This document shows, in pieces, positions 1 to 20,927 of a stretch of DNA of 64,000 bases (its first letter is position 1; every line of letters starts with the position of its first letter). Location of the stretch: the NCBI GenBank assembly GCA_028714695.1, contig JAQTLX010000003.1, positions 186,001 to 250,000 on the forward strand. The letters are read 5' to 3'. The notes under the pieces were generated by a model. The model was given only the letters and a program-made list of their open reading frames with translations, was not told where the DNA came from and searched no databases. The stretch comes from Ignavibacteria bacterium (GTDB lineage Bacteria; Bacteroidota; Ignavibacteria; Tepidaquicellales; Tepidaquicellaceae). The position numbers and the translations under genes were made by a program.

Positions 1-2939
1 AAGATATTTTGTCGTATTTTTTCGAGTTGATTTAGAGCGTTCGTCCTCTGTTCAACAATAAGCGGATTAGCTCCCGTTAATTTTGAAAGAGAAAGCAATC
101 CTTCAACTTCTAAAAATTCTTCGTTGTTAAGTGTTCTGAAACTGTCAATTTCCTCAATCAAGTTTTGTTCAAGCACAATCAAAATTCGGCGCTTTTTCAA
201 TACTTTATTGTGTAATTCATTAACTAGTATTTCTCGTAATAAATCAGTGAAATGATTTCTTTCAATGCCATTTGCAATTTGGGCTGCATCTTCACGGCTG
301 TCTGAAAATACAACCAGTTTTCTTTCAGCTTCGTTGTTTGAAAGTTGATAAATTAACTCTTTTGCAAACATTTGAGTTGTCTTGGCAAAACCAGTTCTGA
401 AACCTCTGATGGAAGTTACTTTAGATTTCCTTGAATCGTTTCTACGTCTTTGGTGATTCACTCCGCAACACGGGCATACATTTGGTAATGCCTTATGCGT
501 TTCTCTTGAGTCGATGTTTCCGTTCGCATCAGGATATGCAATATCACGGCTTGAATTGTTTTCGGTGATAATGAAGTAGTAGCCTTTAATCCAATTTGTA
601 TTGTCTTCATTCGATTTGTCATTTCCGAAATCAATATCACCCGAGAAACGATTCAATGAAGCTGGAATCCAGTTTGCTTCGTAGTCAGTTTGCCGAAATA
701 CTCCTGTCGTTGTTTGTCTCCAAAAGTTAGCAGAAATACCCGATTCAGCATCATGTGGTGTGAACTGCTGGTTGCCACATGGCCAAAACACAGCATACTC
801 CTGATAGCTTCTTTTCTCAACAAGCTTAGCCGGTGTTTTTTCTGGGATACCTTCTATGTTAGGGCTGATTGGAAGTAATTCAAATGAATGGTTGCCAGCT
901 TCATTCCTTGTAACTAATCGGCTTCCACCAAATAAAGTTGTCCCACAATTGTCACAGTAAAGTAATTCCAAAACCCTGTTTCCGCTCTCTGAATTTATCC
1001 GTGTAGTTGAATAAAGTTTTCCAGCTGTACGCTCTCCATCTGCAAATACAGTGTTTCCAACGTCGTCTTGTTTAACGGAAGCCCAAAGCCCCTCAATGTT
1101 TCTAAAGAAATAGTGAAACCTGAATCTAGGTAATTTTCTTTCGACAGGAATTGCATCGGAAATAGCACTGAACTCCGTTTCATCCAAAATTGCCCTTGCA
1201 ATCAACAAGCCTCTTAACGCACTTTGCAAATCCTCTTTACTGGCTGTGTTTTCAAAAATTGTTTCAGCAAAATACTTATCTGTTGCATCATCCCCAGGTG
1301 CCTGTATTGAACAAACAGCTTTATAATCATTGAATGGTGAATACAATCTTTCTTTCAATTGGAAAGCAGGATTGGTAATGACTAAAAGTAATTTTGATAT
1401 CCCGTTTTCACTTTCCGGCAAACTAAAAGCCGATGCAAGTTCTGTTGCGACTGTTTCGCAAGTTGAGATAAAAATTGAATTTGCAATGATTCCTTTTGCT
1501 TCTGAAAATGCAATGGAGATTTTTTTAAATGGATTTACTGGAAGTTTTATGGGGGACTCAGAAAATGCAACAACAGGATTGTTTCTTCCTTCAATTAGTT
1601 TAAACTTTTGGTTAAAGTGTTCTTGACTCACTCCAAAAAAATCACAAACAAAATTTTTGCTGTCATCGTCTCCAGCTTCAAGTGATGCACTCGATGCAAG
1701 TATTCGTAACTGTGGATGGTGCGGGTGTAATCCTATACGGTTAAGAACAAGTTTTAGCAGGTACGCTACTTCTGTACCCTGTGTTCCTCTATACAAGTGT
1801 AACTCGTCTATGATTAAATGAAAAATACGGTTGTTCTTTTCTGTTTCTCTTTGTTCGACCTGTAAATCTTCGCAAGCTAGCCATTGCTTTGTCTCTTCAA
1901 ATATTCCTTTGTCAATATCTCGCATAAGCATAATACTTAACATAGAGTAATTTGTAATGAGTATGTCGGGAGGTGCTACTTGCATATCAAAACGGCATCG
2001 CATTTCCACTCCATCTAATCGTTGGAAAAACGATCTTAAATCTTTTGCTTCACTATCTGATTTTCCAGTTTCCTGAATATATTGCGATACACGGTCTGCA
2101 TCTATTTCAATTTGTTGTAATTGTTCTTTGAGTTGGTTTACTTTTTTTGTGTTTATTACTAATGTTCCATCATCTTTCCTTTTCTTTAATTCACCTGGAA
2201 TCGGTGAACTACCATTGTATCTTCCAAAATAAATTGCGTTGCCATTTACATTTGTGTTTAGCCATTGTCTTGTTTCATTTGAATCAAGCGCTTTTCGTAA
2301 ACGGCTCATTTGGTCCTCAACCAATGCGTTCATGGGGTATAAAATTAATGCTCTTACACCTGCCTTTCTTTGTTCGTGTTTTCGCTGTCTTACGGCCTCA
2401 CTAAGAGTGAAATTAGATGTATTTACAATTTGTGTTGGCGTAAGTCCTCCCTCTGTCATCTCTTTCCACCAAGTATTTGCAGTTGCTTGTTTCGCATTAG
2501 GCGGTTGCCAATTTGCAAATTCTTTGGCGAGTTGTGCAAAAAGGGGCAACAAAAAAGCTTCAGTTTTTCCTGAACCTGTTCCAGAAGTAATTATGCAGTT
2601 GTTTCCCTCAAGTGCTTGCCTCAACATTTCAGCTTGATGTGAATGTAGCATGATGTTAGCAGGAAATAAACCAGTTTTTACAAGTCCCTTAAACGTGTTC
2701 GCCTCATGTTCGTTAAGTACATTGCCCAAATCTGCCAGCGTTAAATCATCAATACGTTTGTTGCTAGAGACATAATCGGGCAAGGGTTCAATCCAAGGTT
2801 TACGGTACAGAACTTTGTCAAAATTGAGTAATGTTTTGCGTTCGTTCTCAAGGCCTTCAAATTTCGTTCTGAAAGCAGTTTCTACATATCGAATAAAATT
2901 GTTCTTAATTATTTCAAACGAACCTATAGGATCTTTCAT
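1..2939 (-). CDS. Giant DExH-box helicase, DruE/YprA-like, C-terminus beyond window
   Basis: The minus-strand frame is open from the ATG at 2939 to the left edge (979 codons), so the C-terminus is missing. Helicase motifs are clear: Walker A GTGSGKTEAF near residue 120, motif Ia LILYPMNALVEDQ, motif II IIDELHLYRGTQGTE near 375, and SASL just after. The second RecA domain opens with KLVVFSDSREDAAQIANGIE near 875. Two CxxC pairs (YCDNCG near 661, CPCCG near 820) suggest a zinc site inserted between the lobes. This layout is that of the 1,600-2,100-aa helicases that end in DUF1998 (DruE of Druantia, YprA/MrfA, DrmA relatives). Its start overlaps the stop of the 951-aa gene by 4 bp (ATGA), so the two are translationally coupled. 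A role as the motor of an anti-phage system is inference; the unseen C-terminus would settle the subfamily. Confidence 0.85.
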   Translation of the reverse strand, partial: MKDPIGSFEIIKNNFIRYVETAFRTKFEGLENERKTLLNFDKVLYRKPWIEPLPDYVSSNKRIDDLTLADLGNVLNEHEANTFKGLVKTGLFPANIMLHSHQAEMLRQALEGNNCIITSGTGSGKTEAFLLPLFAQLAKEFANWQPPNAKQATANTWWKEMTEGGLTPTQIVNTSNFTLSEAVRQRKHEQRKAGVRALILYPMNALVEDQMSRLRKALDSNETRQWLNTNVNGNAIYFGRYNGSSPIPGELKKRKDDGTLVINTKKVNQLKEQLQQIEIDADRVSQYIQETGKSDSEAKDLRSFFQRLDGVEMRCRFDMQVAPPDILITNYSMLSIMLMRDIDKGIFEETKQWLACEDLQVEQRETEKNNRIFHLIIDELHLYRGTQGTEVAYLLKLVLNRIGLHPHHPQLRILASSASLEAGDDDSKNFVCDFFGVSQEHFNQKFKLIEGRNNPVVAFSESPIKLPVNPFKKISIAFSEAKGIIANSIFISTCETVATELASAFSLPESENGISKLLLVITNPAFQLKERLYSPFNDYKAVCSIQAPGDDATDKYFAETIFENTASKEDLQSALRGLLIARAILDETEFSAISDAIPVERKLPRFRFHYFFRNIEGLWASVKQDDVGNTVFADGERTAGKLYSTTRINSESGNRVLELLYCDNCGTTLFGGSRLVTRNEAGNHSFELLPISPNIEGIPEKTPAKLVEKRSYQEYAVFWPCGNQQFTPHDAESGISANFWRQTTTGVFRQTDYEANWIPASLNRFSGDIDFGNDKSNEDNTNWIKGYYFIITENNSSRDIAYPDANGNIDSRETHKALPNVCPCCGVNHQRRRNDSRKSKVTSIRGFRTGFAKTTQMFAKELIYQLSNNEAERKLVVFSDSREDAAQIANGIERNHFTDLLREILVNELHNKVLKKRRILIVLEQNLIEEIDSFRTLNNEEFLEVEGLLSLSKLTGANPLIVEQRTNALNQLEKIRQNI

Positions 2940-5791
2940 ATATTAAAATTAATATTTTCTGAAATTAATGTTTGTCCTAATTTTATCCCGGATATATGTC
3001 TAGCTATGGATTCAGGAATATTTTTGTATAAATAGTAAAGAAAATTTTTATTGCAATAATTTATAAATTGTCTAGGCGGTATTTCCCCACTCAACATTAC
3101 TAACGCTTTTGCTAAAAGCAGTGGAAGCGGTAATAATACAGGAATGGCTAATATTTCGTTCTTTTTGTCATATAAAATTACATTTTTCCCCATCCTTTTC
3201 AAAACTAAGTATCTTCCCCATGTTTTATTAATATTAAAACACTTATTCGACATCCATAGTTTTTGATTTAATTTATAATCTAAGCGATACTCGACTAAAG
3301 ATAATTCCTTGTTAAAATTATCTGTATAATTTGGATCAAATGTAAAGGTCTCTGAATTAAAAATGTACCTTCCCCACGGATAATCTTCTTTCGGGCTTTC
3401 CATGTTTGAAAACATAAAATCTCTATACTCATTTACAGATGAACTCATTATCATAAATCCTATCTGATTAAATATGTCTTTATTAAATGCTATATCACAT
3501 TTCTTTGATAAATCATATAGTTTACTTTCATCTCTTTTAGAATCATTACTGAAAGAAAATAAAGATATTATATTTGGTAAAAGAAATTCGTTTTTTTTAT
3601 CATTTTGGTTCACAATATTGAATTTGATGTCTAATTTTTTCGAATATTTATTTATTTTTTGTATTAGCTCTTCATTTCTTGCACCTGTTATTATAGCCTT
3701 TCTACCATATTGTGAAGGAATCAAAAACAACTGTGGGGGACAAATATAAATTTGCCTAGATTCATAAAAACACTCGATAAAACCTAAATTTGAATAATGA
3801 TATAAAGCAGTCTTTTTCGCTCTGGATAAATTCTCTGGAGTTTTTTCAGCTGAACTGATTTTATTATAAAAGAATTCAAAATTGTTATAAAAATCATTAA
3901 TTGTGCAAGTTTTTATTGTTGACAAATAAGACAAAAGTGGATCATCATAATTCGTATAAGTGATGTTATTCTTTTGCGAAGAGAATGTAATTCCTAATAC
4001 ATAATTTCTCTTGAATAAATCAACATATTGCCTTTGAGTCTCAGCAAATCCTTTTTTAGTAATAATATCGTTACCTTTAACAATACTTAGATCCAAATTA
4101 TCAGTCCGTAACCCAAATTTATTTCGTAATGGTATATTATAAGGAAACTTTAATATCTCTTCTAAGTTGGTTTTTATCAATTCGTAACTATAAGCGTACG
4201 ATGCTAATTCTTGGTCCTTAATTTTAATTTTGAAAGGGATATTACATTTAATGCCTTTTGGGAAATAAAACCTATCTTTAAAGTTTTTATCCTTTTCCAA
4301 AAATATTAATGTTCCATCGTTTGTATATTCAATGAAAACATTCTCTGTTCCATCAGCATTTTTTATATCAATATAAGGAGGATATAAATAATGATATGAT
4401 TTGCCTTTTAAGTGTATTCCTTCTTTTGTTTCAATAGATTTGTTATATAAAATTTGCAGAGTTTCAAACTTAGGGTTACTTATTTGTGGATTCCTGAGCC
4501 AAAACAAAGAAAATCCTGATGGTATTCCTTCAAATTCAATTTTTTTAAAATCACCTGACATAAAGTTCTCACCCCAAGTTAGAATTTCGCTGTTAAATTC
4601 TTCTTTGCAAAGCATATACATTGGGTTGACTCTCGATAATGAATTTGTTTCAATAAAGTAACTATTACTTAGTTGATAATATCCTGCATTTATAAATAAA
4701 CGAATTTCACTGTTGGGAAATCTCGCAATCCATTTATTGTTTTCATCAGTGTATTCGTGGCAGTAATCTAAATTAAATAAAACAGTCGAAGAAAATCCGT
4801 TTATTTCATAATTAACTTGTATGTCATTAAAAATTAAATTGTCCGGATATTCGTTTTCCGAAAACAATCTGTTTGATATTTCAATTTTCTCATTGATAGT
4901 ATTAATTTTAAGCTGAAAACATATTTTTGCAATTGTATAACCTTTTGCAACTTTTTCTGTGTGTTCAAATACTATTTTTCTTTCGGTTTCTCCATTCCAT
5001 TTTTGAAATTCCTTCTTTATAATACCCAGTATAGCTTTAACAATTTCGGTATCCTTATTTTCCTTCAATATTTTATATACAAAATCTTTTAGCTTTAAAA
5101 TATTATCATTATGAAACAAAACTATTTTCAGAAAATATTCGGAAGAGTAATTCGAGTAGGGCGTTAATTTTGCTTCGTTAAATAAATCCGGGAGCTTTAA
5201 TAGATTGCTAGGAGATAGAAGACACTGGGATAAAGGTTTTCCTACATGTATCCAGTTAGGATTTCCGAAATTATGTAATTGAAAAACACCTAATGACCCA
5301 GCCTTTTTATTGTTTGCCCATACTAATAAATCATCCCATAAAACATCTAATTTTTTAAAATTCTGCGTATCTATTTTTTCTGCGGGTAAATCATTTTTTT
5401 CTAGGAATTGCTTAAATGGTTCATAATAATTTCTTGGATCAAAGTTTCTATGAGCTTCTGTAAGAGGTAAAACGGTTAATATTAAATAAATTAAATAAGG
5501 TGGATAAAAATTAGAATTACTTCCATAAAGGGTATTGCTAAGATTTACCCAATCTTCAAATACTTTTATCGCCATCTCAATAATGGGACTACCACACTTA
5601 CTTTCAGGTAAACAATTCTTTATTGCACATATGAAATCCTTCCATATAGCGTCATTATTTGTTACAAGTAAAGTACTTTTACCTATTTCGGTAATATCTT
5701 CTTTTGATAAATATAAATAGACATTTTTACTGGCACTGTCTTCATTAAAAATATGCCTTGCAATCAAGTTATTCCACTCTAAACAGTTCAT
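2936..5791 (-). CDS. Large protein of unknown fold, DruH-like partner of the helicase
   Basis: 951 residues, no signal peptide, no membrane segment and no catalytic motif that I recognise. The protein is rich in Asn, Lys, Ile and Phe. The N-terminus (CLEWNNLIARHIFNEDSASK, then VYLYLSKEDITEIG) resembles from memory the starts of large uncharacterised proteins coded next to DruE-type helicases, of which DruH of type III Druantia is the named case. The middle looks beta-rich; the C-terminal third (from about 640) is more helical and may hold winged-helix segments. The stop overlaps the helicase start by 4 bp, so a stoichiometric complex is likely. The DruH link rests on gene order, size and remembered similarity only, so the function stays unknown. 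Confidence 0.75.
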   Translation of the reverse strand: MNCLEWNNLIARHIFNEDSASKNVYLYLSKEDITEIGKSTLLVTNNDAIWKDFICAIKNCLPESKCGSPIIEMAIKVFEDWVNLSNTLYGSNSNFYPPYLIYLILTVLPLTEAHRNFDPRNYYEPFKQFLEKNDLPAEKIDTQNFKKLDVLWDDLLVWANNKKAGSLGVFQLHNFGNPNWIHVGKPLSQCLLSPSNLLKLPDLFNEAKLTPYSNYSSEYFLKIVLFHNDNILKLKDFVYKILKENKDTEIVKAILGIIKKEFQKWNGETERKIVFEHTEKVAKGYTIAKICFQLKINTINEKIEISNRLFSENEYPDNLIFNDIQVNYEINGFSSTVLFNLDYCHEYTDENNKWIARFPNSEIRLFINAGYYQLSNSYFIETNSLSRVNPMYMLCKEEFNSEILTWGENFMSGDFKKIEFEGIPSGFSLFWLRNPQISNPKFETLQILYNKSIETKEGIHLKGKSYHYLYPPYIDIKNADGTENVFIEYTNDGTLIFLEKDKNFKDRFYFPKGIKCNIPFKIKIKDQELASYAYSYELIKTNLEEILKFPYNIPLRNKFGLRTDNLDLSIVKGNDIITKKGFAETQRQYVDLFKRNYVLGITFSSQKNNITYTNYDDPLLSYLSTIKTCTINDFYNNFEFFYNKISSAEKTPENLSRAKKTALYHYSNLGFIECFYESRQIYICPPQLFLIPSQYGRKAIITGARNEELIQKINKYSKKLDIKFNIVNQNDKKNEFLLPNIISLFSFSNDSKRDESKLYDLSKKCDIAFNKDIFNQIGFMIMSSSVNEYRDFMFSNMESPKEDYPWGRYIFNSETFTFDPNYTDNFNKELSLVEYRLDYKLNQKLWMSNKCFNINKTWGRYLVLKRMGKNVILYDKKNEILAIPVLLPLPLLLAKALVMLSGEIPPRQFINYCNKNFLYYLYKNIPESIARHISGIKLGQTLISENINFNI

Positions 5792-6117
5792 ATATAAAGT
5801 TTGTTGCGAGAAATATTTGTTTGAATGTACTAAATATTAAATATAGTTTTTCCTTGTTAATAAATAAATATACATTGTAAAGTTAATGACAGTAAGAATT
5901 ATTAATACTTGATCGATTTATTACTTTGCTTAAATCACCAGTCAAAGCTTGCATATACAGATCCGATATTGCTATAATAGAATGCACAGCAAGCTATTTT
6001 ATATCATGAATATTTACTTCTTTACGAGTTTGGTGTGTCATGAAAGGCTATCGAACACAATGGAAATATGGTGCTTTTTCTTAATTATTTACGTCTTATT
6101 TTAATATATCATCTATA
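5792..6117. other. Intergenic gap inside the helicase operon
   Basis: 326 bases between two co-directional genes, with no open frame that looks coding, no clear terminator and no strong repeat. It may hold the promoter of the 951-aa gene, which would separate it from the upstream NERD-helicase. The end of the NERD-helicase gene (6118-6130) has no hairpin plus T-run. Confidence 0.4.
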
Positions 6118-8115
6118 TTATTCAATCCAATTCACAAAGTCACTATTTTCATTAGCTAGCTCTTTAATTGTTTTTGCGAACTTAGAGTCTTTGTCCTTTA
6201 TCGTAATAATCAAAGTGTCGATTGCTCTGGTCAGCGGTATTATAGACCACAAATAAACAAAATTATTTTTTATTTGTTCGTCCGTTAACAACCCTAGTGT
6301 GCTGTCATCCTTCTCTTTTTCATAAGTTTCAAATTTATAACGTATAAATTCATCCAGCTCTAAGCATACAACAGTCCAACCTTCCAATCCACGACACGAA
6401 TCATACTGCAAAACTCTATGCTGATTAGGATTAACAGAATATTCAGCTCTTAAATCAGTTTTTGTCCCATCCCATAATTCTATTCCCATTTTTTTAAAAT
6501 CTTCAGTTAGAGTAAACTCTTTTATAACATTTCCGTATTTATCATTTCCGACTTTTTTAACATTGCTGGGAGAAGTAAAAAACATCATTTCAAATGCAGA
6601 ATTCCCATTCTCTAGACATCTCTTATATTCTTTTTCGTGCAATTCTTTATAATATTTTTTCGTGCTTATTATTATTCTTCCCCCTGTCAATTCCTCCTTA
6701 ATTTCATGATTCCAATTAATACCAAATTTGCGAGCATAATAATTCACAAACATAACAAGATTCTTTTTCTGCCTGAGACAAATTTTTTCGTGAATTTTAT
6801 GTGTTTCGATTCTTTGGTTTTCTCCTCTTTCCCAATTGCATTTTGTTTTTTTCCTAACGAGTTGGTCAATTCCGTCCGCTACTATCAGCTTCATAGGTGT
6901 AAATATTTTATATAGAACGTATTTTTCTATTTCGTTCCAATCTTGTCCTTCATCGATCAATACAAAATCCCAAGCAACTTGATCATGCCTATTTTTCATT
7001 AATTTTTGTATATCTGTTTCTTGAATAAGACCCTGGCTTATATAAGAATATAATTCAGCAAGATATTCATCATATTTGGTAATATAATTTGGTATTACTT
7101 TTACCTCTGCGTCTGGATCATTTTCGTTTTTTACTAATCCGAAACCAATAATTAATTCAAAAAAGAATTTATGGAGTGTCATTATGTTGACTGTATAACT
7201 ATCTATTTTATCGGGAATCTCTGCTAATGCAAATAAGCGTTTCATATCACCGACTAATGCATGATTATAAGTTAATATAAGACATCTACTATTATTATTA
7301 ATTGCCAAATCACAAGCAATGCGCATAATTTTTATAGTTTTGCCAGTCCCAGCCCTCCCACTAACAATCAAGGTTTTTTTGCTAATATATTGAACATATT
7401 GTTGATCGTTTAATATCTTTCTGGTTATCAACTCAAGTTTTTTCCGTGTTAAAAGCGATATTCCGATTTTGGTTTTTTGAAAAAGATCGAAATATTCTTT
7501 AAAATTTTCCAAATCAAACCTTTTAATCTTTTTAGCGCACGAGAATGCCATTCGGTTTAAGTTTGTGCCATACGGTTTATTTTGTAAAAAAGCTTTATCA
7601 AATAAGTAAGAAAGAGAAAATCTGTTAGGTAGGAAATTATTGTCAGAATAATTATCGGTTAATATATTCAACTCCTCATTTGCCAATTGCCTTAACCAAA
7701 CAAAATTACATACATATGGTGATTCTTTTAATTTATCAATAAAATAATTTGTAAGAGAGTATTTTTGTTTTTCACTTTGAGTTGTAATATCGTGATACTT
7801 TCCATTATATTTTACTTTTAAGATATTATTTTCATATGCAATATCTTCTGCGGGATGATTTTTGGTTTCAAATATGAAACAAAAATCATTAATAAAGGTG
7901 TCGTTAATAATAGGATTTTTGTTTCTTTCAAAATTTCCAAGCGCTATAATATCAAAATCTTTTACTTGGTATCCAAATAAAGTGGCATTAGTTATAATCA
8001 GAATATCGCCATTTAATCTTTTTGAAATACCGTTAGCGATTATACTTTTTAAAAACTGTGCATCTCTATATTCTGTGGTTTCCTCATTACCGATCACTCT
8101 TATATTGATTGCCAT
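6118..8115 (-). CDS. NERD-type nuclease fused to SF1 (UvrD/DUF2075-like) helicase
   Basis: 665 residues, ATG at 8115. The N-terminal ~100 residues carry a PD-(D/E)xK-like pattern: VKDFDIIALG (D53 or D55) followed by FIFETKNH (E83, K85), as in NERD nuclease-related domains. A P-loop follows (SGRAGTGKT near 252), Walker B with a DEGQD signature near 388, LIVADGIDQL as motif III, QYDSCRGLEGW near 570 and PLTRAIDTLII near 625. These are SF1A helicase motifs. No zinc site or membrane segment. NERD plus SF1 helicase proteins occur in defence loci. Here it lies upstream of, and on the same strand as, the helicase pair, 326 bp away. Whether it is a subunit of that system or an independent single-gene defence is open. 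Confidence 0.85.
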   Translation of the reverse strand: MAINIRVIGNEETTEYRDAQFLKSIIANGISKRLNGDILIITNATLFGYQVKDFDIIALGNFERNKNPIINDTFINDFCFIFETKNHPAEDIAYENNILKVKYNGKYHDITTQSEKQKYSLTNYFIDKLKESPYVCNFVWLRQLANEELNILTDNYSDNNFLPNRFSLSYLFDKAFLQNKPYGTNLNRMAFSCAKKIKRFDLENFKEYFDLFQKTKIGISLLTRKKLELITRKILNDQQYVQYISKKTLIVSGRAGTGKTIKIMRIACDLAINNNSRCLILTYNHALVGDMKRLFALAEIPDKIDSYTVNIMTLHKFFFELIIGFGLVKNENDPDAEVKVIPNYITKYDEYLAELYSYISQGLIQETDIQKLMKNRHDQVAWDFVLIDEGQDWNEIEKYVLYKIFTPMKLIVADGIDQLVRKKTKCNWERGENQRIETHKIHEKICLRQKKNLVMFVNYYARKFGINWNHEIKEELTGGRIIISTKKYYKELHEKEYKRCLENGNSAFEMMFFTSPSNVKKVGNDKYGNVIKEFTLTEDFKKMGIELWDGTKTDLRAEYSVNPNQHRVLQYDSCRGLEGWTVVCLELDEFIRYKFETYEKEKDDSTLGLLTDEQIKNNFVYLWSIIPLTRAIDTLIITIKDKDSKFAKTIKELANENSDFVNWIE

Positions 8116-8385: not shown

Positions 8386-9504
8386 TTACTCCCTTTCTAT
8401 CAGCCACCTCAGCATTTCAATAGATTTATTCTGCACAGCAATGTATTTGAACAAATAAAAACGATCTTTTATGTAATACTTTTCCAGTAGGCTAATTTTT
8501 TCTTTCATTCCCCACCTGGAAAACATTATTGCATAAATCATTGTCTTGGCATAAAATTCATCCAGGTCGTATTGGAAGTTGCTTTCCAGAGACTTAAAAT
8601 TGGGTATATGTACTCTCTGCGCTTGATAGACTTTATTCTTATAATCATAAACATATCTGTATGGTTTCAATTCTAATTCTTCGTCTCGATTCGTTGGCAC
8701 GGAATAATTTCTTTTTGTTAAGATTAATTCTGGAATTTCTGGGTTATAGCGGGTATACGGTCCAAAATCATCAAAAAATAAATCAAACTCAGGTTTCGGA
8801 AATACCTTATTAAGTGTCTTTCCTAGTATTTTTATCGCGCTGATTTCATCTTTGTAATCCTGTATTGCCTTTCTGTCCCTTTCATTTGCATACTCAAAAT
8901 CATCTATCAGCACCTGCTTATCAATTTCATACCCCGGATCTTCATCCAATATCCAACTTATTAGCTCAGTCCTGTATTCCCTGTATTGACCCTTATGAAA
9001 ATTTTCTTTAGCCCAAGCTGTTATTTCGCCAGACTTATATTTATATCTTAAAATGAGAATAAGAATTGTTTTTGAGACATTAACATAGCCTAATAAGTAA
9101 TTTATCTCCTCACTATTTAGGTGAAGACCTATTAAAGAATGTGCGATTTTTGTAATGAGTTTGTATCTTGTCTTTTTACTTTTTATTGAACTTTCTAATA
9201 CCAACTTAAGTAAATCAAATAACAATGATGCAGTTCTATCAGGCAGGTCTATTTTGTTCTTACATAGCTCTAAATAATTGTACAATGATAATACTACCGC
9301 TTGTTTATTGATTCTCATTCCGTTTTTCCAGTCTTCAACTGCTATTCTTAATAGCGAGAAAAAGACGTTTGGATTGAACTGATAATAATTAAGAAACTCC
9401 CTCTGTTTGAGATAATCTTTATAAGATGATATTATACCGTCGTCAGGGTATTTGTTTTCAATTTTGGCGATGTTCAGTCTCAGGAAAAGTGAATCGGGAC
9501 TCAT
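8386..9504 (-). CDS. Hypothetical protein, 372 aa, mostly helical
   Basis: ATG at 9504. No family recognised. The N-terminal 200 residues look all-helical, with repeating hydrophobic heptads, as in helical-repeat proteins. A more polar middle holds FFDDFGPYTRYNPEIPELIL, and the end (MEKLRWLIERE-like helices) is helical again. No signal peptide, no transmembrane segment, no cysteine pairs. It lies upstream of the NERD-helicase on the same strand (270-bp gap) and divergently from the zinc-ribbon/HEPN gene, with palindromic sites in the shared promoter region. A regulator or island cargo protein is possible, but nothing in the sequence shows it. Confidence 0.7.
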   Translation of the reverse strand: MSPDSLFLRLNIAKIENKYPDDGIISSYKDYLKQREFLNYYQFNPNVFFSLLRIAVEDWKNGMRINKQAVVLSLYNYLELCKNKIDLPDRTASLLFDLLKLVLESSIKSKKTRYKLITKIAHSLIGLHLNSEEINYLLGYVNVSKTILILILRYKYKSGEITAWAKENFHKGQYREYRTELISWILDEDPGYEIDKQVLIDDFEYANERDRKAIQDYKDEISAIKILGKTLNKVFPKPEFDLFFDDFGPYTRYNPEIPELILTKRNYSVPTNRDEELELKPYRYVYDYKNKVYQAQRVHIPNFKSLESNFQYDLDEFYAKTMIYAIMFSRWGMKEKISLLEKYYIKDRFYLFKYIAVQNKSIEMLRWLIERE

Positions 9505-9813: not shown

Positions 9814-10932
9814 ATGGACAATTTAAGTCAACAGAAAGATTTTGAAGAGATAGGCCATTCAGGTGGAAAAATAGAGCTAACAAAACAACCAGATGGTTCT
9901 TTATTATTAACTATAGAAGGTGCTAATCCTTGGGCTTTTTCAATGTTTAATTTAGAAGTATCTTTTAGTGGAGTAATATTAGGTAAATCTAATATTTCTG
10001 GCGGATATGCACCTGATGCCCCTCCCCAAGAACGAAACACTGTGCAGGTAATGGTTATTTCAGACAGAAATGGATTGTGGGGTAGAATTTGTCCTATTTG
10101 CAGAGGATATTTTAGAACAAACTTTCCAGGTGACCCCACATTTTGTCCGTACTGTGATTATAAAGGTGACGGCATCAGATATCTTACAAAAAATCAAATA
10201 CAGTTTATTGAAGCATATTTTAATGCTTACATTAATGCTCTTATCAACGGTATTGACGTTACGATAGATTTGGATGAATTAACATCTAAATTAGAAGAAA
10301 ATAACAAGTCCCCTTGGGTTTATACAGAAGAAAAACAGCAAACACAAGTATATTGTCCGAATTGTAAAACAACTTTTGATATATTAGGTGAATATGGAAG
10401 ATGTCCTCAATGTGCTTTGCCCAATGCGAAACAAATTGTAATCGATAAATTTAATAATCTAGAATCAGATTTTATTAATAAGGAAAAGACTATAAATGAC
10501 AGGTCAAAAAGAGAAATGGAGTGGAAATCATTTCTTTTAAATTCTGTTTCTGTGTTTGATGGCCTAGGACACGAAATGAGAAGAAATTTATTGTTTTCTC
10601 CATATACGCCAAAAAGAAGAGCAGATTTAGAATGTTTGAGTTTCCAAAACATATTAAAAGTTAATGATTGTTTCAAGAATTGGTTTGGGTTCGAAATACT
10701 TTCGGGAATTACGAATTCCGATAAAATTTTTCTAAATATAATGTTCAACAAAAGGCACCTCTTTACTCATAACAATGGGATTGTTGATTCGGAATACTTA
10801 AAAAACACTGATGATAAAAAAGTTAAGTCAGGACAGTTAATTAGATTGGATAGTAAGGAAATAAAAAGATTTCTACTCTTAGTAAAATGTATAAGTATAA
10901 ACTTTATTGAAGGAGTAGTTAGTATTTCATAG
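9814..10932 (+). CDS. Double zinc-ribbon protein with C-terminal HEPN-like domain
   Basis: 372 residues, ATG at 9814. Two zinc ribbons are visible: CPIC at 93-96 with CPYC at 111-114, and CPNC at 181-184 with CPQC at 197-200. The C-terminal ~170 residues are helical and contain FNKRHLFTHNNGIVD, where R314 and H319 form the R-x4-H motif of HEPN ribonuclease-type domains, in the context (RHxxxHNNG) seen in ApeA-like HEPN proteins. The N-terminal 85 residues (beta-rich, EIGHSGGKIELTKQPDGSL) are unidentified. HEPN domains in defence and abortive-infection proteins often cut RNA; here that is inference. The gene is divergent from the 372-aa hypothetical gene, convergent with the 164-aa gene 14 bp downstream, and sits inside the island beside helicase genes. 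Confidence 0.7.
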   Translation: MDNLSQQKDFEEIGHSGGKIELTKQPDGSLLLTIEGANPWAFSMFNLEVSFSGVILGKSNISGGYAPDAPPQERNTVQVMVISDRNGLWGRICPICRGYFRTNFPGDPTFCPYCDYKGDGIRYLTKNQIQFIEAYFNAYINALINGIDVTIDLDELTSKLEENNKSPWVYTEEKQQTQVYCPNCKTTFDILGEYGRCPQCALPNAKQIVIDKFNNLESDFINKEKTINDRSKREMEWKSFLLNSVSVFDGLGHEMRRNLLFSPYTPKRRADLECLSFQNILKVNDCFKNWFGFEILSGITNSDKIFLNIMFNKRHLFTHNNGIVDSEYLKNTDDKKVKSGQLIRLDSKEIKRFLLLVKCISINFIEGVVSIS

Positions 10933-19400: not shown

Positions 19401-19721
19401 ATGGTGAGTTCTTCGGAACTCACTCAAACTACGAGCCCGGAAATTACAGAAAGAAGTCTCAGGCTTCTTTCTGTAAACGAGGCTCGCGAAATACTTAAAG
19501 TGCGACATGAAACCGTAAAAAAGCTGATACAGGAGGGTAAGATTGAAGTGTTGTTAATCGGAAAACGTATCAAGATACCCTACCGAAGTCTGATTAAATT
19601 TTTAAATAATAACGCGAAGGAGTTAAGCGAAGAATCATGCGGGCAACAATTGCACTTGAAAAGAGACATAGTAGAAAACAAAATTGATTCAATAATTAAA
19701 CAACATACAAGGAGATATTAA
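19401..19721 (+). CDS. Excisionase-like MerR/HTH_17 protein
   Basis: 106 residues. The middle (LLSVNEAREILKVRHETVKK, then LIQEGKIEVLLIGKRIKIPY) is a textbook helix-turn-helix of the excisionase or DNA-binding HTH_17 family: helix, turn, helix, then the wing leading to the IPYRSL segment. The stop overlaps the recombinase start by 1 bp (TAATG), so the pair is translationally coupled. The likely role is to set the direction of recombination and to repress or activate the element. The start codon sits at the foot of a strong hairpin, which may throttle translation. Confidence 0.8.
   Translation: MVSSSELTQTTSPEITERSLRLLSVNEAREILKVRHETVKKLIQEGKIEVLLIGKRIKIPYRSLIKFLNNNAKELSEESCGQQLHLKRDIVENKIDSIIKQHTRRY
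19404..19423 (+). promoter_or_regulatory. C(UUCG)G-capped hairpin at the excisionase start codon
   Basis: GTGAGTTC (19404-19411) pairs perfectly with GAACTCAC (19416-19423) over the tetraloop TTCG. It begins one base after the ATG at 19401. No T-run follows, so it is not a terminator. In mRNA it would be a very stable hairpin that can block ribosome entry. Confidence 0.6.
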
Positions 19722-20797
19722 TGTCCTCTTTATTTAAAAAAAGAAACAAGTGGTATATTGATACGCTGGTAGATGGCAAGCGAATAACCAAGAACACGGG
19801 TCTTGCTGCGACTAAGGCTAACAAGAAGGAAGCAGAAAATATTAAACGAGAAATTGAAGACATGATTTCATCAAAGAAATACATCGTATCAACCGGTAAA
19901 TCAGTTATTGCTTGTGTTGAAAAATTTAAACAAGAACATTTAAATTTAAAATCCGAATCTCATCAGGGAGTCTTTCATGACGCCTTGGGACATTTTCTGA
20001 AAATAGTACCAGGCGATACTAAAATCGAAAATGTATCTTCTGAACATATTGTCGGATATATCGAATATCTAAAGCCGAAGGTTGAAAATTCTACACTGTT
20101 AACTTATATCAATTACATGAAGATATTTTTCAACTTTCTGGTTGAAGAAGAAATTATAGTCCGAAATCCGATAAGGAAAAAACAAATCCCCAAAAGGGTG
20201 AAAAGGAATATCGTTTTCTTTAATCAGAAAATGCTTGATGATATTCTTAAAACAGCTAAAGAAAGAGATCCGGAATACTACAAATTCCTCATGATGCTGT
20301 TACTGACAGGGCAACGACCAATTGATGTTCTGTCTTTAAAAGTTGGGAATATAGATTTAGGAAACAAGATTATCATCGTGAACATTTCTAAAACAAACAA
20401 ACAGATAATTTTCCCTTTGTACGATGATTTAAAACACTTTATCGAATCTGAACTAAGTGAAAATATTCGTGGTGATAAACAGCAAAGAGTTTTTAAGGAT
20501 TTCAACCTTGAGATTGTAAGAAAGAGATATATGCGGATAAAGAGACATTTGAAAATAACAGAAAAGCATGTGTTTACGCTGAGAACCTTTCGCACAACCT
20601 TTGCTTCTTATCTTGCCTCTAAAGGAATTGATCAGGCTAAAATAGCCGATCTGTTGGGACATGATGATGCTCGAACGACACGAAAATATTACGCAGCAGT
20701 GTCAACAGATAATCTGCGTAAAGAATTGAATCAAATCTTTATGGTTCAAAATCCGGACAAAAGTGCTGACAAAAGTGCTGACACTTCTAAAGAATAG
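19721..20797 (+). CDS. Tyrosine recombinase (integrase) of the island
   Basis: 358 residues, ATG at 19721 with AAGGAG 5-11 bp upstream. An N-terminal SAM-like core-binding domain (about 60-160) and a catalytic domain follow the usual order. Catalytic residues: R199 in TGQRPIDVL, the beta-hairpin Lys in SKTNK, R291 in TFRTTFAS, H314 in LLGHDD and Y323 in TRKYY. The position normally held by the first His of HxxR is Arg288. The C-terminus has a short repeat (DKSADKSAD). It ends 58 bp from the 3' end of tRNA-Lys, the usual arrangement of an integrase beside its attachment site. It would integrate and excise the island together with the small HTH protein upstream. Confidence 0.95.
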   Translation: MSSLFKKRNKWYIDTLVDGKRITKNTGLAATKANKKEAENIKREIEDMISSKKYIVSTGKSVIACVEKFKQEHLNLKSESHQGVFHDALGHFLKIVPGDTKIENVSSEHIVGYIEYLKPKVENSTLLTYINYMKIFFNFLVEEEIIVRNPIRKKQIPKRVKRNIVFFNQKMLDDILKTAKERDPEYYKFLMMLLLTGQRPIDVLSLKVGNIDLGNKIIIVNISKTNKQIIFPLYDDLKHFIESELSENIRGDKQQRVFKDFNLEIVRKRYMRIKRHLKITEKHVFTLRTFRTTFASYLASKGIDQAKIADLLGHDDARTTRKYYAAVSTDNLRKELNQIFMVQNPDKSADKSADTSKE

Positions 20798-20847: not shown

Positions 20848-20854
20848 ACAGTTG

Positions 20855-20927
20855 TGCTCTCTGGGGGATTCGAACCCCCGACCCACTGATTAAGAGTCAG
20901 TTGCTCTACCAACTGAGCTAAGAAAGC
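20855..20927 (-). tRNA. tRNA-Lys (anticodon CTT)
   Basis: The 73-nt cloverleaf reads from 20927 to 20855. The acceptor stem GCTTTCT / AGAGAGC pairs fully with one G-U. The D-arm AGCTCAGTTGGTAGAGC is canonical. The anticodon arm ACTGA-CTCTTAA-TCAGT gives CTT, and the T-arm holds GGTTCGAATCC. The discriminator base is A and CCA is not encoded. Its 3' end faces the integrase and probably serves as the attachment site. Confidence 0.95.

Follow-up and report, generated by a model that had tools for sequence, protein, structure and literature searches.

The left end of the stretch of DNA analysed here (64,000 nucleotides, hereafter the window; contig positions 186001-250000 of a 3.85-Mb genome in 37 contigs) raises two questions: to which defence system do a giant helicase gene and the large gene overlapping it belong, and is the nuclease-helicase gene found upstream a part of that system? 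In a sequence-only reading, the three genes had been taken for a type III Druantia system extended by a NERD helicase, within a tRNA-integrated island. The explanation that we favour, with a probability of about 0.7, is a hybrid anti-phage operon of Druantia types II and IV, located in a tRNA-Lys island; the NERD-like nuclease/helicase protein (NERD-helicase) encoded directly upstream would be an exchangeable module that Druantia has recruited repeatedly.

The three genes were found on the minus strand where that reading had placed them. The helicase gene, druE, occupies positions 1..2939, which encode the N-terminal 979 of its 2,035 residues; the full gene (L002:10832-16939) runs to about window position -3168, and the operon reaches ~6 kb leftward of window position 1 on the same strand. 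DruE is a YprA-family SF2 helicase with inserted CxxC pairs, as already read from the sequence. When compared with the PADLOC models, it was matched end to end by DruE2 (E=0, 1,846 bits), and DruE4 gave E=0 and 1,662 bits. The Pfam domains PF00270 (DEAD), PF00271 (helicase-C) and PF09369 were detected, and a related solved structure was found (9wae, E=9e-212). The last of these domains, the C-terminal Zn-binding MZB/DUF1998, is complete (residues 1797-1892, E=8.8e-6). A DUF1998 end had been expected to the left of position 1, and it is there; as PF09369 is present, its absence can no longer be invoked against a Druantia helicase. Thus, by its Pfam domains and its position in the tree, DruE has the features common to Druantia in general, namely a YprA-family SF2 helicase with a C-terminal Zn-binding domain. 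The extreme C-terminus is a degenerate Vsr-like domain; across some 80 aligned homologues, the HP(F/L)W element is kept and the PD acid is missing. The same loss of the nuclease acid has been stated for DruE of Druantia I and II (PMC12458937). Because this Vsr-like end lacks the catalytic acid, cutting should come from DruK or from another nuclease.

The gene preceding druE (2936..5791, minus strand, 4-bp overlap with druE) encodes a 951-aa protein, in which PADLOC DruF4 covers residues 1-574 (E=1.5e-76) and DruL4 residues 617-948 (E=7.8e-56). This protein is hereafter called the DruF-DruL fusion, or DruFL. It is here that the type III proposal (DruH and DruE extended by a third gene) was decided. 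A large protein is indeed encoded directly upstream of DruE, as DruH is in type III, and in both systems a YprA-family helicase is accompanied by a large protein that diverges rapidly. However, no PADLOC DruH model matched the 951-aa protein at E<=1, whereas DruF and DruL together match it over its whole length; DruE scores only 291 bits with DruE3 against 1,846 with DruE2; PLD domains were not detected by Pfam at the end of DruE; and the present operon contains more genes. Type III, to which we give almost no weight, was ruled out by these profile matches; the more general claim of a Druantia-like core was borne out.

On its other side, druE is followed, with overlapping ends, by three genes of the minus strand. 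The first, druK (L002:9762-10832, 356 aa), encodes a PD-(D/E)XK nuclease (PADLOC DruK E=2.3e-22; PDDEXK_1 E=7.7e-19) in whose sequence Cas4-like cysteines are visible. The second, druM (L002:8615-9802, 395 aa), encodes a cytosine methylase (PADLOC DruM2 E=3.4e-144) with visible PPCQ and ENV motifs, and the third is vsr (L002:8203-8637, 144 aa; Pfam E=3.9e-31). The 258-aa protein encoded after Vsr is weakly UDG-like, at an E value of 0.008 that is under the cut-off. No match to DruG was obtained among the 16 proteins scanned. According to the PADLOC definitions (PMC8565338), type IV consists of DruE, DruF and DruL without DruM and DruG, and type II of DruM, DruF, DruG and DruE. The locus shares with type IV the presence of DruE, DruF and DruL, a DruK-like PD-(D/E)XK nuclease (PADLOC models DruK too) and the lack of any DruG match; it differs from it in the fusion of DruF to DruL, in the DruM and Vsr genes of the operon, the DruM2 match being contrary to the absence of DruM that type IV requires, and in the NERD-helicase upstream. 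With type II it shares a DruE that scores best with DruE2, a methylase matching DruM2 and the presence of DruF, but it has DruL and no DruG match. As DruM is present and DruG was not matched, the locus stands between type II and type IV, and its core, the predicted operon druFL-druE-druK-druM-vsr, is on its profile matches a hybrid of the two.

In order to place this core among its relatives, the DruE alignment was scanned against 84,980 species genomes and 526 relatives were obtained, of which the top 80 were retained for annotation by means of iterated profiles. Among these best 80 of 526, the order DruF(-L)-DruE-DruK-DruM(-Vsr) is found in most loci and is common to most Bacteroidota and several other phyla, DruF and DruL being fused in 42 loci and encoded by separate genes in others. 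Since the same gene order recurs across Bacteroidota and other phyla, the core is ordinary and widespread. The system is of a known kind, and its interest lies in the mixing of types II and IV and in the NERD-helicase as a recurring partner. The genes next to DruE define the Druantia types, and a locus in which DruM stands with DruL and DruK breaks the boundary between type II and type IV.

DruFL is the fastest-diverging member of the set: mean identity to 13 near relatives is 76% for DruE, 65% for DruK, 61% for DruM and 35% for DruFL. Such low identity is what might be expected of a sensor. Between L014 and L019, DruE is 86% and DruFL 33% identical, the fall in identity occurring at the gene boundary; this break would fit allele replacement or a very fast divergence of DruFL, and an exchange of sensor-gene cassettes is possible. 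The AlphaFold model of DruFL (mean pLDDT 85, pTM 0.81) predicts a helical region (1-265), a beta-rich, Ig-like region (268-577) and an alpha/beta DruL part (618-951). Foldseek found no PDB or viral match to this fold below E=0.001, the central beta region being weakly of the Ig/filamin type. As a significant fold match is lacking, the sensor reading rests on divergence and on analogy. In type III, DruH diverges more than the DruE it accompanies, contains Ig-like domains and has been proposed as the sensor (PMC13192584); DruFL may be likened to it, by analogy rather than by test.

The third gene (6118..8115, minus strand) encodes the 665-aa NERD-helicase, with a NERD-like PD-(D/E)XK nuclease and an SF1A (UvrD/Rep-like) helicase, as indicated by its motifs, by PF00580/PF13245 and by Foldseek. 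In 10 homologues, G48, D53, D55, E83-x-K85, Q113, Q117, the Walker A motif (G253-GTGKT) and DEGQD vary little or not at all; the PD-(D/E)XK residues follow the NERD pattern and the SF1 motifs are intact. In the AlphaFold model (mean pLDDT 62.6), the helicase part matches Rep, UvrD and GajB, with a Foldseek probability of 1.00 for Rep/UvrD. The description of this protein as a NERD nuclease with an SF1 helicase is thus upheld at the level of motifs, but Pfam NERD (PF08378) was matched weakly and in only two of the 10 members (best E=0.16), and for this reason we use the label NERD-like PD-(D/E)XK. Nhi and Mokosh type I are listed among the NERD-containing defence proteins (PMC10952713). In its domain content, the protein shares with them a NERD-like nuclease and a helicase in one defence context; it was not matched by PADLOC.

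The family is rare. At a loose threshold it occurs in 8 of the 395 phylum genomes, and it was absent from 348 other Pseudomonadota genomes sampled and from 294 other genomes in the order of L077; none was found in phage records or viral contigs. Matches in L045 and L088 were discarded as partial or weak.

Despite this rarity, the NERD-helicase gene adjoins druE loci in nine other places (L065, L077, L084, L112, L115, L116, L117, L091/L130 and L095/L131), in at least four lineages and mostly with an overlap or a spacing of less than 20 bp. The gene order varies: DruF-DruL-DruE-NERD-helicase in L065, NERD-helicase-DruFL-DruE in L077 and L084, NERD-helicase-DruF-DruL-DruE in L112, and DruE followed by an overlapping NERD-helicase gene on the plasmids L115, L116 and L117, the L115 locus being interrupted by an IS3 element. 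The linked loci L095/L131 and L091/L130 are split between contigs whose joining is inferred; in the latter, the NERD-helicase gene faces druE. On the Alisedimentitalea plasmid (L116:11887-16597, plus strand), the NERD-helicase gene lies behind druE, and the next genes of that strand encode a DNA cytosine methylase and an MvaI/BcnI-type restriction enzyme.

The plasmid loci were found with the NERD-helicase as sole query, without DruE; in this search, three of four lineages were linked to Druantia. Among strong matches in other genomes of the phylum, one of five was linked (G032). By a rough estimate, the chance of each linked case under uniform placement is well under 1 in 1,000. Furthermore, the distribution of the NERD-helicase on the DruE tree needs five changes, at least four of them on starred branches, and in one DruE clade (L077, L084, L091, L095) all four members have it. 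Within the phylum sample, seven genomes have a DruFL match and eight a NERD-helicase match, both occurring together only in the genome of the window; DruFL diverges too fast for such a genome co-occurrence test to be suitable, as G032 has both by profile. From these linkages we conclude that the NERD-helicase often belongs with Druantia in general. No description of the pairing was found in the literature searched, in keeping with the earlier remark that the combination was not known to have been described. DruK is present in 1 of 8 NERD-helicase loci versus 47 of 68 others (Fisher p=0.003, relatedness ignored). Mutual exclusion of the two proteins gave no signal in independent pairs once relatedness was respected, and is kept as conjecture.

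A YprA-family helicase next to a NERD-type nuclease also recalls TALON, in which an ARMADA-like YprA helicase is associated with NERD nuclease, TPR-cold shock and TBP proteins (PMC12458937). However, DruE is a full-length Druantia II/IV protein of the Druantia branch, neither a TBP nor a TPR-CSD protein is encoded among the neighbours scanned, and the NERD part forms one protein with an SF1 helicase in this locus. TALON, which we consider hardly credible, was rejected on gene content.

At the present locus the association is weaker. The NERD-helicase gene lies on the same strand as druFL and directly upstream of it, across a gap of 326 bp (5792..6117, minus strand) in which no terminator was found and in which promoter-like sites were no more numerous than expected, so that the scan was uninformative. 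The window is the sole carrier of the NERD-helicase among the 31 members of its DruE clade; it is missing from the 30 others, 25 of which have more than 3 kb of upstream sequence, and to this extent the three-gene combination is not conserved. In the NERD-helicase tree, the protein groups (96/98) with L109 and L113, followed by L065 and the restriction-modification-associated L110. There is no Druantia near L109 or L113, the latter lying at a contig end with its downstream side unseen. Because the NERD-helicase is absent from the rest of the DruE clade and its sister sequences are without Druantia, its recruitment to this locus was probably a separate and recent event, whether as an accessory or as a mere neighbour. 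Here Druantia and the NERD-helicase thus have a young link, and their association may be loose.

These data bear on an explanation to which we give nearly an even chance, namely that the NERD-helicase acts on its own, as a single-gene defence of the nuclease-helicase type (cf. Nhi), and is no more than a neighbour of Druantia in this island, the Druantia operon beginning at druFL with a promoter of its own. The 326-bp gap, the absence from the other clade members and the Druantia-free nearest relatives, others being alone or beside type III restriction-modification genes, all favour it, as does an island rich in other defence-like genes. It accounts less well for a rare family that adjoins Druantia at nine other loci, most often by overlap or within 20 bp, and for the same-strand position with no terminator between. 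We hold more tentatively, at somewhat less than even odds, that the NERD-helicase is a genuine, exchangeable effector of Druantia II/IV: a system of NERD-helicase, DruF-L and DruE, in which it would replace DruK as the DruE nuclease is dead, both nuclease modules being present here and DruFL being a swappable sensor.

For the favoured reading, a Druantia II/IV hybrid with an exchangeable NERD-helicase upstream, the following working may be proposed from the gene content. DruM would methylate host cytosines as a self-mark, and DruFL would sense infection or non-self DNA and gate DruE. By extension from type III DruE (PMC13192584), DruE would load onto phage replication intermediates at their 3' single-stranded parts and unwind them. 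Cutting would take place in trans, by DruK and, here and in other loci, by the NERD-helicase, whose function at this locus is likewise inferred. Vsr and the weakly UDG-like protein might repair deamination damage arising from methylation. In at least four lineages the undescribed partner recurs next to DruE, and this recurrent pairing suggests that the DNA-cutting component of Druantia is replaceable. Were an exchangeable nuclease to be supplied in trans, the destruction of phage DNA by Druantia II/IV would be explained despite the inactive nuclease domain of the helicase.

The island itself, as proposed in the sequence-only reading, is real. A tyrosine integrase gene (19721..20797, plus strand; PF00589 E=5.2e-24) adjoins tRNA-Lys (20854-20927), which bounds the island. 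The attachment repeat is formed by the 3' 43 nt of tRNA-Lys (20854..20896, minus strand), and an exact 43-bp second copy lies on the same contig at C3:149137-149179, 57.7 kb to the left of the tRNA-Lys copy. The Druantia operon is thus carried by a 57.7-kb island integrated at tRNA-Lys. Other defence-like genes are abundant in it, and it fits the defence-island pattern described previously (PMC12458937).

Several of the other island genes deserve mention. Directly upstream of the NERD-helicase gene, a 372-aa gene of the same strand (8386-9504, minus) matched nothing in any library and is absent from the 80 DruE loci. A second 372-aa protein (9814-10932, plus) contains a pair of zinc ribbons and, towards its C-terminus, a possibly HEPN-like region, and weakly matches PADLOC PDC-M14A (E=2.6e-5). 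To the left of the window, L002:3635-6016 (plus strand; window about -10365 to -7984) encodes a ThiF/E1-like protein (PF00899 E=3.9e-24), a weak Prok-JAB protein and a 269-aa protein without assignment; this putative cassette looks like a ubiquitin-like E1/JAB defence cassette of the Bil or CBASS type. Also left of the window, L003:35-9510 (minus strand) carries genes assigned by eye from their translations: a radical-SAM activase-like protein, a ClpB-like ATPase, a 1,185-aa Ser/Thr kinase with a membrane part and a PP2C-like phosphatase, probably a signalling or defence cassette of the island. Finally, decayed integrase fragments related to the island integrase were found just beyond the left attachment copy (L135:14405-14503; contig C3:148405-148503), and these remnants outside the left repeat suggest that an earlier element had occupied the same tRNA site.
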